A DNA stretch of 64,000 nucleotides, from contig NZ_JACYXK010000029.1 in assembly GCF_014842975.1 (NCBI RefSeq), positions 186,001-250,000 on the forward strand, written 5' to 3'. Within the stretch, counting starts at the first letter, position 1, and each line of letters opens with the position of its first letter. Below are positions 12,498 to 25,547 of this stretch, in pieces. The stretch is from Rhodanobacter sp. DHB23 (GTDB lineage: Bacteria > Pseudomonadota > Gammaproteobacteria > Xanthomonadales > Rhodanobacteraceae). The translations under genes and the position numbers were made by a program. The notes under the pieces are model-generated. The model saw only the letters and a program-made list of their open reading frames with translations, ran no database searches and was not told where the DNA came from.

Positions 12498-14294
12498 ATG
12501 CGCGGCCTGATCCCCGACAGCTTCATCGACGAACTGCTCGCCCGCGTCGACATCGTCGACGTGATCGAGCGGCGCGTGCCGTTGAAGAAGGCCGGGCGCG
12601 AGTGGACCGCGTGCTGCCCGTTCCACGACGAGCGCACGCCCTCGTTCTACGTCAGCCCCGCCAAGCAGTTCTTCCACTGCTTCGGCTGCGGCGCGCACGG
12701 CAGCGCGATCAAGTTCCTGATGGACTACGAGCGGCTGGAGTTTCCCGACGCGGTGGAGGAACTGGCGCAGTCGGTGGGCCTCACCGTGCCGCGCGAAGGC
12801 GGCCGCGACGACCGCCCGCGCGAGGACAAGACCGATCTCTACGACCTGCTCGACGCCAGTGCGCGCTGGTACCAGGAGCAGTTGCCGCGCAATGCCGAAG
12901 CGCAGGCGTACTGCAGGAAGCGCGGCCTGGACGCCGACACCATCGCGCGCTTCCGGCTCGGCTGGGCACCAGCCGGCTACGACGGCGTTACCAAGGCACT
13001 GGGCAACAGCCCGCGGCGGATGGAGCTGCTGACCGAGGCCGGCATGGTTTCCACCGGCGAGCGCGGCAGCCGGTACGACCGCTTCCGCGAACGGCTGATG
13101 TTCCCCATCCTCGACCGCCGCGGGCGCGTGATCGCCTTTGGTGGTCGCGTACTGAGCGGATCTTCGAGCGCGAGTCCTTCGCGCGAAGATCAAGAAGCGG
13201 GCATCCCTGCCCGCACTCCTGAAAAAAGCTCACCCAAATACCTCAACTCCCCCGAGACGCCGCTGTTCCACAAGGGCCGCGAGCTGTTCGCGCTGTGGCA
13301 GGTGAAGCAGGCCAACGCGAACCTGCAGCGCATCGTGGTGGTGGAGGGCTACATGGACGTGATCGCGCTGCACCAGGCCGGGCTGCCGATCGCGGTGGCC
13401 ACGCTGGGCACCGCCACCACGCCCGAGCATACCGAGCTGCTGTTCCGCGCCGCGCCCGACGTGGTGTTCTGCTTCGACGGCGACCGCGCCGGCCGCGCCG
13501 CCGCATGGAAGGCGCTGGATGCCGCGTTGCCGCGGCTGCGCGACGGGCGGCAGGCGTATTTCCTGTTCCTGCCCGATGGCGAGGACCCGGACACGCTGGT
13601 GCGCAAGGAAGGCAGGGACGGTTTCGGGCAGCGCCTGAAGAACGCCACGCCGCTCTCCGACTACTTCTTCGACGAACTGGCGCGCGACGTGGACATGGCC
13701 AGCCTTGACGGCCGCGCGCGGCTCGCCGAGCGCGCACGGCCGCTGATCGCCCGGCTGCCCGATGGCGCCTTCCGCGACCTGATGGCACAGGAACTGGAGC
13801 GGCGCAGCGGCGCGAGCGCGCGTCTCGCGGCCAGTCCTGTCGCACAACAGGCGCAACGACCCGCGAACACGCAGCGCTCGCTGGTGCGCAGCGCCATCGC
13901 CCTGCTGCTGGCCCAGCCCGGCATGGCGGATCAGGTGGAGAAACCCTACCGCTTCCTGCGGCTGGACAAGCCCGGCGTCCCCCTGCTCGCCGAACTGCTC
14001 GACCTCGCGCGCAGCCGCCCCGGCATCAACCCGGCCATGCTGGTGGAGCATTTCGCCGAACGCGCGGAATACCCGGCGCTGCAGAAACTGATGGCCGCCG
14101 CCGTGGTGGGCGAACCGGAAGCGCAACGCACCGAATTCATGGAGGCATTGCTGCGCATGGACGAGCAGGCCGTGGCGCTGCGCCGCGAAACGCTGCACGC
14201 GAAGATGCGCAACGGCCCGCTCGACGATGCAGAGAAGGCCGAGCTGCGCGAGCTGCTGGCGGCACGCGTGCGGCCTGCCGTCGCGCCGGAATGA
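12498..14294 (+). CDS. dnaG: DNA primase, with an in-frame repeat insertion
   Basis: 598 residues. Zinc-binding CHC2 domain with C40, H43, C61, C64 (CCPFH and HCFGCG), then the catalytic core, the TOPRIM motifs VVVEGYMDVIAL and FDGDRAGRAAA, and the C-terminal helicase-binding domain. It makes RNA primers at the replication fork. In the core, the conserved GGRVL (residues 215-219) is normally followed within a few residues by PKYLNSPET; here 26 residues (220-245) rich in Ser, Glu, Arg and Pro stand between them. The inserted DNA is a hairpin repeat (13159-13214) read in frame. Residues needed for catalysis are all present, so the protein is expected to work. Unlike the E. coli order, rpoD does not follow. 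Confidence 0.97.
   Translation: MRGLIPDSFIDELLARVDIVDVIERRVPLKKAGREWTACCPFHDERTPSFYVSPAKQFFHCFGCGAHGSAIKFLMDYERLEFPDAVEELAQSVGLTVPREGGRDDRPREDKTDLYDLLDASARWYQEQLPRNAEAQAYCRKRGLDADTIARFRLGWAPAGYDGVTKALGNSPRRMELLTEAGMVSTGERGSRYDRFRERLMFPILDRRGRVIAFGGRVLSGSSSASPSREDQEAGIPARTPEKSSPKYLNSPETPLFHKGRELFALWQVKQANANLQRIVVVEGYMDVIALHQAGLPIAVATLGTATTPEHTELLFRAAPDVVFCFDGDRAGRAAAWKALDAALPRLRDGRQAYFLFLPDGEDPDTLVRKEGRDGFGQRLKNATPLSDYFFDELARDVDMASLDGRARLAERARPLIARLPDGAFRDLMAQELERRSGASARLAASPVAQQAQRPANTQRSLVRSAIALLLAQPGMADQVEKPYRFLRLDKPGVPLLAELLDLARSRPGINPAMLVEHFAERAEYPALQKLMAAAVVGEPEAQRTEFMEALLRMDEQAVALRRETLHAKMRNGPLDDAEKAELRELLAARVRPAVAPE
13159..13214. repeat. Hairpin repeat inside dnaG coding sequence
   Basis: Two adjacent stem-loops: GATCTTCG (13159-13166) pairs with CGAAGATC (13184-13191), and GCGGGCA-TCCC-TGCCCGC (13197-13214) is a perfect 7-bp stem with a 4-base loop. 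Read on the minus strand the order is stem-loop, TTCTTGATCTTCGC, stem-loop, the same layout as the tandem repeats at 25442-25547 next to ctaE. The sequence keeps the dnaG reading frame open. Confidence 0.75.
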
Positions 14295-16060: not shown

Positions 16061-17722
16061 TCAACGCGGTGCGGCACCCGCCTGCGCGGCAACGCGCAGG
16101 CGGTCCTGCAGCAGGCCCGCGCGCTCCAGCACCGGATAGGCCAGCGCCGCCAGGTGCGAATGGATGCGCTTGAGGTCGCGCAGGATGCGCAGGTAGACGT
16201 CACCCGCGCCGCCGTCGTCGCGGCGCTCGCGCAGGGCGCGGATGTGCCGCTCGGAGATCTCGTTCTCCAGCCGCCACAGCACCTCCTTGCGCGCCACCAG
16301 CTGCTGCGCCGCGCGCACGTCGCTGCGCAGGAACACCGTCCAGGCCAGCTGCAGGCTTTCCATCACCTGCGCGTGCATGCGCGCCAGGTCCTGGATGTCG
16401 TCGGCGCTGAAGTCCTGCCCGCTCGCGGCTTTCTTGGCGGCGAACTCCATCAGGTTGTTGGCGGTGATGTCGCCGACGTGCTCGATGTTGATGACGAAGC
16501 CGAGGATCTCCTGGCTGCGCTCGCCGTCCTCCTCGTTCAAGGCCTCGTTGCCCAGTCCGGCGAGGTATTCGCGGATCGCCACGCCGAGGCGGTCGAGTAC
16601 GGCGTCCTTGCCGCCGATCGCCGCGGCACGCGCACGGTCGTCCTTGCCGAACACCTCGACCAGACCCTTGAGCATGTTCTCCACCATGTCGGCCATGCGC
16701 ATGGCTTCGCGCGCGGCGTTCGCCAGCGCCACGTTGGCGGCATCCAGCGCACCGGCATCGAGGTAGAGCGGCACGCCGGCATCGGCCGGCTTCGGGGGCT
16801 CGGGCAGCAGGCGCACCAGCAGTCGCGCCAGCCGCTGCACCGGCAGGATGAACAGCAGCGCCAGCGCGAGGTTGAACGCAGTGTGGAAGTTCACCGCCAT
16901 GCGCGCCGGCGAATCGCCCAGGTGCGCCAGCAGCCCGGTGAGTGGATGCAGCAGCGGCAGGCAGACCACGCAACCGAAGGCGCGCACCAGCAGGTTGCCC
17001 AGCGGCAGGCGACGCGCCACCGGCGTGCCGGCATCGAACAGCGCCGGCAGGGTGCCGCCGAGGTTCGCGCCCAGCACCAGCGCCAGCGCGCCCTGCGCAT
17101 CGACCACGTTGGTGGTGGCCAACGAGACGACCAGCAGCACCACGGCCACGCTGGAGTGGCAGGCCCAGGTGAGCAGCGCCGCCACCAGCATCGCCAGCAC
17201 CGGTGCGCTGGCAAGACTGTGCAGCGCCGTGCGCAGCAGGGCGGTGTCCTCCACCGGCGCCATCGACACCACCAACATGTGCAGCGCCAGCAGCATCAGG
17301 CCCAGGCCGATCGCGCAACGGCCCAGGTTCTCGAAGCGCGCGTCGTCGCTGCGCCGGTACACCGCGAAGCCGGCCAGCACCAGCACCGGCGCCACCAGCG
17401 CAACGTCGAACGACAGCAGCTGCACCACCAGGGTGGTGCCCACGTTCGCACCCAGCATCACCACCAGCCCCGGCACCAGGCCGAGGAAGCCGTTCGCGGC
17501 AAACGAGGTGGCCATCATGCCGGTGGCGGTACTGCTCTGCAGCAGCGCGGTCATGCCCAGGCCGAAGCAGAACGCGGCGGGGCGATGATTGAGGTAACGC
17601 CCCAGCCAGCGGCGCAGCGCGCTGCCGTAGCCGCGCAGCACGCCGCTGGTGACCATGTGCGTGCCCCACAGCAACAGGGCGACGTAGCCTGCGATGTCCA
17701 GCAGGATCAGGGTTCCTTTCAT
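16061..17722 (-). CDS. Na/Pi-cotransporter family protein with PhoU-like domain
   Basis: 553 residues. Membrane part (1 to about 310) has two inverted repeats of the NptA/PNaS type, with the signature LQSSTATGMM in the first and ACHSSVAVVLLVVS in the second, and GANVGTTLVV / GANLGGTLPA motifs. The C-terminal 200 residues are helical and PhoU-like (NIEHVGDITANNLMEFA). Bacterial members move phosphate with sodium or act in phosphate homeostasis, some after phosphonate or glycerol-phosphate breakdown. GGAG 7 bp before the ATG at 17722 favours this start over an ATG 27 bp upstream. No pst or pho genes are nearby. Confidence 0.88.
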   Translation of the reverse strand: MKGTLILLDIAGYVALLLWGTHMVTSGVLRGYGSALRRWLGRYLNHRPAAFCFGLGMTALLQSSTATGMMATSFAANGFLGLVPGLVVMLGANVGTTLVVQLLSFDVALVAPVLVLAGFAVYRRSDDARFENLGRCAIGLGLMLLALHMLVVSMAPVEDTALLRTALHSLASAPVLAMLVAALLTWACHSSVAVVLLVVSLATTNVVDAQGALALVLGANLGGTLPALFDAGTPVARRLPLGNLLVRAFGCVVCLPLLHPLTGLLAHLGDSPARMAVNFHTAFNLALALLFILPVQRLARLLVRLLPEPPKPADAGVPLYLDAGALDAANVALANAAREAMRMADMVENMLKGLVEVFGKDDRARAAAIGGKDAVLDRLGVAIREYLAGLGNEALNEEDGERSQEILGFVINIEHVGDITANNLMEFAAKKAASGQDFSADDIQDLARMHAQVMESLQLAWTVFLRSDVRAAQQLVARKEVLWRLENEISERHIRALRERRDDGGAGDVYLRILRDLKRIHSHLAALAYPVLERAGLLQDRLRVAAQAGAAPR

Positions 17723-17796
17723 GATGGACTCCGGATGGAATCGGGACATGGCCCGTTCGCGCTGAGCGTAACTTGCGAAAGTAAGCGACGCGAGGA

Positions 17797-17814
17797 GCGG
17801 CCACGAATGGCCGC
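17797..17814. repeat. Short stem-loop repeat (CGAA loop)
   Basis: GCGGCCA-CGAA-TGGCCGC, a perfect 7-bp stem with a 4-base loop. Same size, closing A-T pair and loop type as the stem-loops at 25442-25459 (CGGA loop) and inside dnaG at 13197-13214 (GGGA loop on the minus strand). Lies between the Na/Pi transporter and mgtA genes. Confidence 0.55.
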
Positions 17815-25403: not shown

Positions 25404-25441
25404 TCAAGAACTCGATCCGAAGCAACGCTTCTCTGAAAAGT

Positions 25442-25547
25442 CCGGCCACGGATGGCCGGTTTTTGACTTTCGCTTTCCGCGACAGGATGTCGCGTGAGGT
25501 AAAGACGGCCGGTTCTTGATCTTCGCTCTCCGCGACAGGATGTCGCG
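25442..25547. repeat. Two tandem copies of a stem-loop repeat after ctaE
   Basis: Copy 1 (25442-25494): CCGGCCA-CGGA-TGGCCGG stem-loop, linker TTTTGACTTTCGC, then CGCGACA..TGTCGCG stem-loop. Copy 2 (25505-25547): a degenerate first stem (ACGGCCGG), linker TTCTTGATCTTCGC, then the identical CGCGACA..TGTCGCG stem-loop. The second copy ends exactly next to the ctaE stop codon at 25548. The same layout is found in the dnaG insertion. Confidence 0.75.

Follow-up and report, generated by a model that had tools for sequence, protein, structure and literature searches.

The primase gene dnaG of Rhodanobacter sp. DHB23 lies in the stretch of DNA analysed here (64,000 nucleotides, in the following called the window), and its product has 26 residues between the GGRVL and PKYLNSPET motifs, where the E. 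coli primase has four. The locus raises the question of whether a dispersed repeat has become coding sequence of an essential enzyme and, if so, how it reached this position and what became of it in the relatives. We will argue that a two-hairpin repeat has probably been taken up in frame in the primase loop, where it is tolerated and decays, and that the versions of this loop are most likely swapped by the exchange of short tracts.

The DnaG loop and its hairpins

The features needed for the discussion are the following.

12498..14294, plus strand: dnaG, DNA primase, 598 aa (ORF; Pfam; TIGR01391)
13155..13232, plus strand: 26-residue stretch, DnaG 220-245 (phmmer to 1DD9; AlphaFold pLDDT)
13163..13225, minus strand: 63-nt two-hairpin repeat unit in orientation A (covariance model R1: 67.8 bits, E 3e-18)
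13159..13191, no strand: hairpin 2 with outer stem (inverted repeat and RNA fold)
13197..13214, no strand: hairpin 1, perfect 7-bp stem and 4-nt loop (stem search; own-genome copies)
25431..25491, plus strand: second window copy of the repeat family (R1 50.8 bits, E 3.4e-13)

The window DnaG carries the Pfam domains Zn_ribbon_DnaG, DNAG_N, Toprim and DnaB-binding. In a phmmer alignment with 1DD9, the core of E. coli primase, it matches up to query residue 221 (chain 130) and again from query residue 244 (chain 131), which means that 22 residues are extra in the window protein. With the NCBIfam DnaG model, too, the best-matching stretch stops at residue 222. The initial annotation had placed the insert at 13155-13232, that is, at residues 220-245, and both these coordinates and the additional residues agree with the ORF translation and the phmmer alignment. 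It had also assigned the insert to the catalytic core, and this is supported; the insert adjoins GGR and PKYLNSPET, in a low-confidence stretch between two strands.

In the AlphaFold model, the pLDDT is below 50 for residues 222-245, which are flanked by these two strands. The model is modest (mean pLDDT 73.6, pTM 0.55, 33 sequences) and was used solely for the low confidence of the loop. The zinc-binding region 41-82 of DnaG also has low pLDDT, and the thin alignment may partly explain the low values, so we take them as no more than a hint of disorder in the loop. The insert adds approximately 22 residues to an apparently flexible loop of the essential DNA primase.

At the DNA level, the two stem-loops that had been proposed are both present. 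The inverted repeat 13159-13170/13180-13191 has 12-nt arms that are 92% complementary, and 13197-13214 forms the perfect 7-bp stem. Folded as RNA, the 91 nt from 13150 to 13240 reach −37.8 kcal/mol, compared to a mean of −21.7 for 200 shuffled sequences, none of which was as good (z −4.99).

A covariance model, called R1, was trained on 33 copies of the repeat, all of them located outside dnaG and taken from this and other genomes. It has 64 positions and two hairpins, and the consensus of the 33 copies contains neither a GTAG nor a CGTC tag. Rfam yielded no family at the gathering score in the 64-kb window, and none at E<=1 in 13000-13400. In the 70 best own-genome copies (63-66 nt), the minus-sense frames, numbered from the end of each copy, are open in 59/70 cases for frame 0, in 64/70 for frame 2 and in 13/70 for frame 1. 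Among these 70 copies, the GCGGGC arm of hairpin 1 is seen in dnaG only.

Repeat copies in the genome

A genome-wide search for the insert, proposed beforehand, did reveal other copies. The insert sequence itself finds partial copies, the best of 37 to 47 bases with 85-92% identity, while R1 gives at least 145 matches at E<=1, 134 of these at E<=3.7e-4. Since the best 150 of 3598 candidates were scored, the number 145 is probably a lower bound. The 134 stronger matches correspond to 92 loci, present as singles or arrays; the 11 weak matches were dropped. The R1 match and the genome copies support the view that a dispersed repeat lies in frame as coding sequence of dnaG, with its translation being a prediction from the DNA.

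In the arrays inspected, the copies are arranged head-to-tail with a period of 65 bp, as for example the four minus-strand copies at C25:60269-60528, and the alternating orientation of a BIME was not found in these own-genome arrays. A further array is located at C21:586382-586706, and the largest arrays hold 5, 4, 4 and 4 copies. Within the window, a weak match adjoins the second copy (25495-25547, R1 9.3 bits, E 0.77), and a lone hairpin resembling hairpin 1 is found at 17797-17814 (R1 15.9 bits, E 0.0085), just outside the minus-strand ORF 16061-17749.

Two Y1_Tnp (RAYT-like) places were found, at C19:268542 and C19:311874 (L222 and L223), one of them spanning about half of the family model. 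A RAYT gene flanked by the repeat was not found; among the matches listed, the nearest ones on C19 are at 211431 and 430310. A RAYT as the mover of the dnaG-type repeat was rejected, as no copy among the matches listed is near either Y1_Tnp place. The earlier description of the repeat as REP-like is thus right in part: it is palindromic and has many copies, but three marks of classical REPs were not found, namely a GTAG/CGTC tag, copies alternating in orientation as in a BIME, and a RAYT gene at its flank.

The primase gene is not the sole gene concerned. At least 5 of the 92 loci lie in frame inside coding genes, namely dnaG, recJ, hflX, valS and gcvP (names by NCBIfam), where a locus was counted if it is open through the repeat and has coding-like flanks in the same frame, according to a codon score trained on seven window ORFs; 17 borderline loci were left out of this count. 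These genes were also compared across the genus, with patterns that missed 2/15 hflX, 3/14 recJ, 4/15 gcvP and 5/14 valS rows.

For recJ, the comparison shows short loops (L365, L366, L373, L374, L375), inserts in the A orientation, which is that of the window dnaG (L363, L364, L367, L372), and one apparently decayed A insert (L370), with the recJ insert of the window's genome (L362) being opposite to A. In hflX, repeat-derived sequence is present in several species, with short loops in L353-L355, and in valS the repeat is present in L396 and L399. For gcvP, 11 rows were read, and only the row of the window's genome contains the repeat. There (L380), it substitutes for a stretch of the glycine dehydrogenase that is kept by the 10 other congeners read, and is not a simple addition. 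Separately, valS L319 contains at ~525-674 a second in-frame insert of another repeat type (SPLPAGEG...SPQPLSRGERG), with −100 kcal/mol over 150 nt, and its translation also matches many other places in the genus.

The recJ and gcvP data bear on an explanation in which resident repeats are inserted over and over by an enzyme or a replication-linked process. The same loop would then seem to be targeted because only permissive loops survive selection. Both orientations are found at one site in recJ, as in dnaG (see below), and the 5′ junctions of the A-type inserts L363 and L364 differ, which speaks for independent insertions in recJ. In addition, the recJ L363, recJ L364 and gcvP inserts have the hairpin arm that is common among the resident copies. 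For recJ and gcvP, fresh insertion is accordingly somewhat more likely, and we return below to the evidence for and against it in dnaG.

States of the dnaG site

A match to dnaG was obtained in 228 of 233 family genomes, and the site was read in 133 of the 228 (115, and 18 later as a control); in some of the unread genomes the dnaG match is in pieces. Four classes are distinguished: empty (E), filled in the orientation of the window (A), filled in the opposite orientation (B), and diverged (X). The first 115 loci comprise 59 E, 30 A, 17 B and 9 X, and the further 18 (16 from genus g17 and 2 from g7) are all empty, which brings the 133 sites to 77, 30, 17 and 9, respectively. Where an insert is diverged (L033, L071, L077, L118, L124, L137 and L140, among others), its label was assigned by resemblance, and the nine X rows were kept as such.

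The empty loop often reads VLSSEQSP, and most empty sites have the standard loop of 8 residues. An example of an A loop is IISSAPPAREDQEAGIPARTPEKSSP, and one of a B loop is IIQKSGDGSPAPDAGAQDARKSDGP. Of the 115 loci, 63 were searched with R1, namely those with long or doubtful loops and seven empty ones, and the insert is detected in 37 of the 63 at E<=1.1e-4, all matches above 45 bits being 63 nt long. In 80 named loci, the loop is 7 or 8 residues long in 48 cases. Long loops are present, for example, in Frateuria terrea, Dyella psychrodurans, D. amyloliquefaciens, Fulvimonas sp. R45 and several Rhodanobacter, and the loop of Frateuria terrea equals the window's insert except for one residue beside it. 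With the site filled in one or the other orientation in many relatives, the window insert is not an isolated event. Its 26 residues were seen in relatives only with repeat DNA (L024, L025, L043), so neither of the two outcomes named beforehand as refuting the interpretation has occurred.

Small hairpin elements that are bypassed by ribosomes are known in other systems, and by analogy the dnaG insert could be skipped in expression, through translational bypass or RNA removal. Bypass would, however, not require an open frame, and the sites are in frame without stops in 115/115 and 18/18 cases, diverged inserts included. With all 133 of 133 sites open, translational bypass was rejected, and we regard a skipped insert as extremely unlikely. 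We infer that the loop residues form part of the primase made and do no harm to the enzyme.

The constraint on the loop can be estimated from the differences at codon positions 1, 2 and 3, calculated over non-independent pairs and with 25 codons on each side taken as flanks. The 21 A loops with strong R1 matches differ by.22/.157/.244, compared to.04/.017/.336 for their flanks, and the corresponding values for 11 such B loops are.144/.108/.284 and.016/.004/.244. The A loops are thus under little protein constraint, and their third-position changes are fewer than those of the surrounding gene. They look younger than the gene only between distant pairs (dnaG synonymous difference >0.3); in close A pairs, the synonymous difference of the loop is at least that of the gene. 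In the B loops, constraint is weaker than in the flanks, yet some codon-position signature is kept. As they are about as diverged as the flanks at third positions, the B loops show no sign of being younger than the gene.

Some A inserts are nearly the same in different species. L024 and L025 have identical 63-nt cores and differ at 11/50 flanking third positions, and L043, from another genus, has one difference in the core and differs at 15/50 flanking third positions.

Another possibility is that the insert has been selected for a function of the loop or of the RNA or DNA hairpin, for example in priming, in regulation or in evading a primase-binding factor of a phage or plasmid. The coexistence of three states across genera could be read in this way, as could the proximity to the conserved GGR and PKYLN motifs. 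Hairpin pairing is moreover kept in 95% of the cells of the alignment, and 10 of 12 pairs show changes on both sides. These figures, however, come from an alignment that was fitted to the model and that pools A and B inserts, which are different repeat variants, with six weak matches from elsewhere. R1 scores are low or lacking for many diverged inserts, in which the frame is still kept, and in the A loops positions 1 and 2 change at nearly the rate of position 3; both observations speak against function. We consider selection of this kind unlikely.

The distribution of the states is patchy even inside single genera. On a dnaG tree built without the loop, close relatives are often in different states. 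At least 31 changes are needed for E/A/B, compared to a mean of 41.0 and a lowest value of 32 in 500 shuffles. Empty versus filled needs at least 29 changes (shuffled mean 38.6, lowest 28), and A versus B at least 12 (mean 14.1, lowest 9). Counts below the shuffled means indicate some inheritance, with little signal in the orientation. It should be pointed out that the counts are approximate, since this is a quick tree in which 37 of 112 inner branches have less than 80% support. One spot in an essential enzyme seems, as far as can be judged from the sequences, to have been rewritten repeatedly by selfish-looking DNA.

A or B inserts are also present in g2, g4, g5, g18 and g19, genera that branch away from the others. 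This would be in line with a single ancient insertion, followed by vertical inheritance and many independent clean losses, and the same holds for the third-position divergence of the B loops and for three g18 genomes that have a decayed A insert and no match elsewhere at E<=1e-6. Such a history does not, however, explain two orientations at one site, the scarcity of tree signal in the orientation (12 changes versus 14.1 in shuffles), the identical cores of L024 and L025 despite their flanking differences, or the fact that most empty sites have the standard 8-residue loop. Vertical inheritance as the sole explanation was rejected on account of the two orientations, the weak tree signal and the near-identical A inserts across species, and a single ancient insertion appears very improbable.

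Exchange, fresh insertion and known systems

We now turn to the two processes that could produce the switches. In the sequence of events that we favour, the dispersed two-hairpin repeat of Rhodanobacter and relatives (63-65 nt) would enter the loop between GGR and PKYLNSPET. The insertion would be tolerated because the loop can accommodate additional residues, which are probably without fixed structure, and because the minus strand of the repeat is mostly free of stops in two of three frames. Frame-keeping insertions would survive and, being weakly constrained, decay afterwards. The three versions of the loop (empty, A and B) would be swapped between and within genera, most likely through the exchange of short stretches of DNA that have the site at their centre, while some insertions would be new.

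The abundance of the repeat is related to the occupancy of the site. It was evaluated in 67 chosen genomes of known state, with at most the best 79 candidates scored per genome and with stricter filters. The median number of copies outside dnaG is 12.5 in 26 A/B genomes versus 4 in 38 empty ones (Mann-Whitney p 0.0023), and a permutation within genera gives p 0.010, although occupancy does not follow abundance within g2 and g8. Eleven genomes have no match outside dnaG at E<=1e-6; 8 of them are empty, and 3, all from g18, have diverged A inserts. That occupancy tracks abundance, also within genera taken together, is what repeated fresh insertion would predict, and it supports the favoured sequence of events as well.

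A plain comparison of flanks between same-state and different-state pairs gave little contrast, and amino-acid matching and an all-empty genus were then added. Same-state pairs are slightly more alike beside the site than different-state pairs, most clearly among the closest pairs (18 versus 69 pairs), which speaks for exchange. Carriers of one state barely share flanks, a further point on the side of fresh insertion.

The amino-acid-matched synonymous differences, on the other hand, show a peak at the site. The 8-codon windows starting from codons −7 and −3 rank 1 and 2 of 138, in comparisons that use non-independent pairs, and the ratio for the five codons before the site is 1.7-2.9 in the switching genera g1, g2, g6, g8, g12 and g23. 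In g17, the best-sampled empty genus, where 20/20 sites are empty and the four genomes searched contain no copy, this ratio is 1.12, and in g7 it is 0.76 (6 pairs). The peak is present between empty alleles too, which speaks for exchange. The picture has exceptions: g7 has 2.28 at codons −10 to −5; g10, which has no A or B, also peaks (2.04, 6 pairs); and the only close g17 pair (below 0.25) has a ratio of 2.29. On the whole, the synonymous peak appears to fit events centred on the site, though not cleanly.

The relationships among the inserts themselves also bear on the choice. The 21 A inserts with strong R1 matches have the hairpin-1 arm GC[AG]G[GA]C, which in g2 reads CCGGGC. Frequent insertion of resident repeats sits badly with their sharing an arm seldom seen in the 70 own-genome copies; the GCGGGC arm is also found in two resident copies of genome G173 (L232, L239). 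Furthermore, when an A insert is compared with 15 chosen genomes, eight of them with an A site, the dnaG inserts of these eight come first, each with at least 86 bits, and the best of the remaining matches has 61.7 bits. The A inserts of dnaG are in these genomes closer to each other than to any other copy, contrary to what fresh insertion would lead one to expect. For dnaG, exchange of a few founding insertions is therefore somewhat more likely, and we infer that exchange rather than re-insertion lies behind most of the switches. Repeated fresh insertion as the general explanation is quite conceivable, although we would put it at somewhat less than an even chance.

Going beyond short-tract exchange, the primase loop might be a hot spot of horizontal cassette exchange, at which the E, A and B states are maintained across genera by frequency-dependent selection and the selfish repeat acts as a supplier of loops. 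We find this rather doubtful. If it were true, a phage or plasmid factor that targets primase could be what drives the frequency-dependent selection.

The kind of phenomenon is not new, since in-frame palindromic repeats are already known as RPEs and as intragenic REPs. In searches of a literature consisting mostly of non-subscription papers, we found no relevant account of REPs in Rhodanobacter or of a palindromic insertion in dnaG, and none of this repeat family or of a site in an essential gene that switches between empty and both orientations.

According to the RPE passages of two papers, RPEs are palindromic repeats fused in frame inside conserved genes; their length is given as 105-146 or about 150 bp, and a guanylate kinase that contains an RPE is reported to be translated and active (PMC2229807, PMC10969869). 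The present repeat resembles the Rickettsia RPEs in lying in frame in conserved protein genes (5 of 92 loci here) and in having a frame that is largely open through the repeat. It differs from RPEs (about 105-150 bp, terminal inverted repeats) in having 63-65 nt, two hairpins and head-to-tail arrays. The switching between three states at one site, seen here for dnaG, was not found in the RPE passages of PMC2229807 and PMC10969869.

Intragenic REPs with GTAG/CGTC tags occur inside ORFs, many of them in genes of DNA synthesis or replication and of repair, as reported in the main text of PMC3733652, which contains no mention of 'dnaG', 'primase' or 'Rhodanobacter'. Unlike the REPs of that text, the dnaG repeat has a consensus with neither tag. 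Like classical REPs, it is short, palindromic and present in many copies (at least 145 matches).

Stenotrophomonas and Xanthomonas belong to the same order as Rhodanobacter. According to PMC2817692, the REPs of these genera begin with a GT(A/G)G head and are located at the flanks of a RAYT gene. The dnaG repeat is like them a high-copy short palindrome, but neither such a head nor a flanking RAYT was found for it.

The dispersed repeat family of Rhodanobacter and relatives that is characterised here offers a natural series, in which one essential enzyme has an empty, a filled or a reverse-filled loop in related organisms, with both well-kept and diverged examples. This series allows tests of how non-autonomous repeats become protein sequence, of the neutrality of such insertions and of their movement between species.
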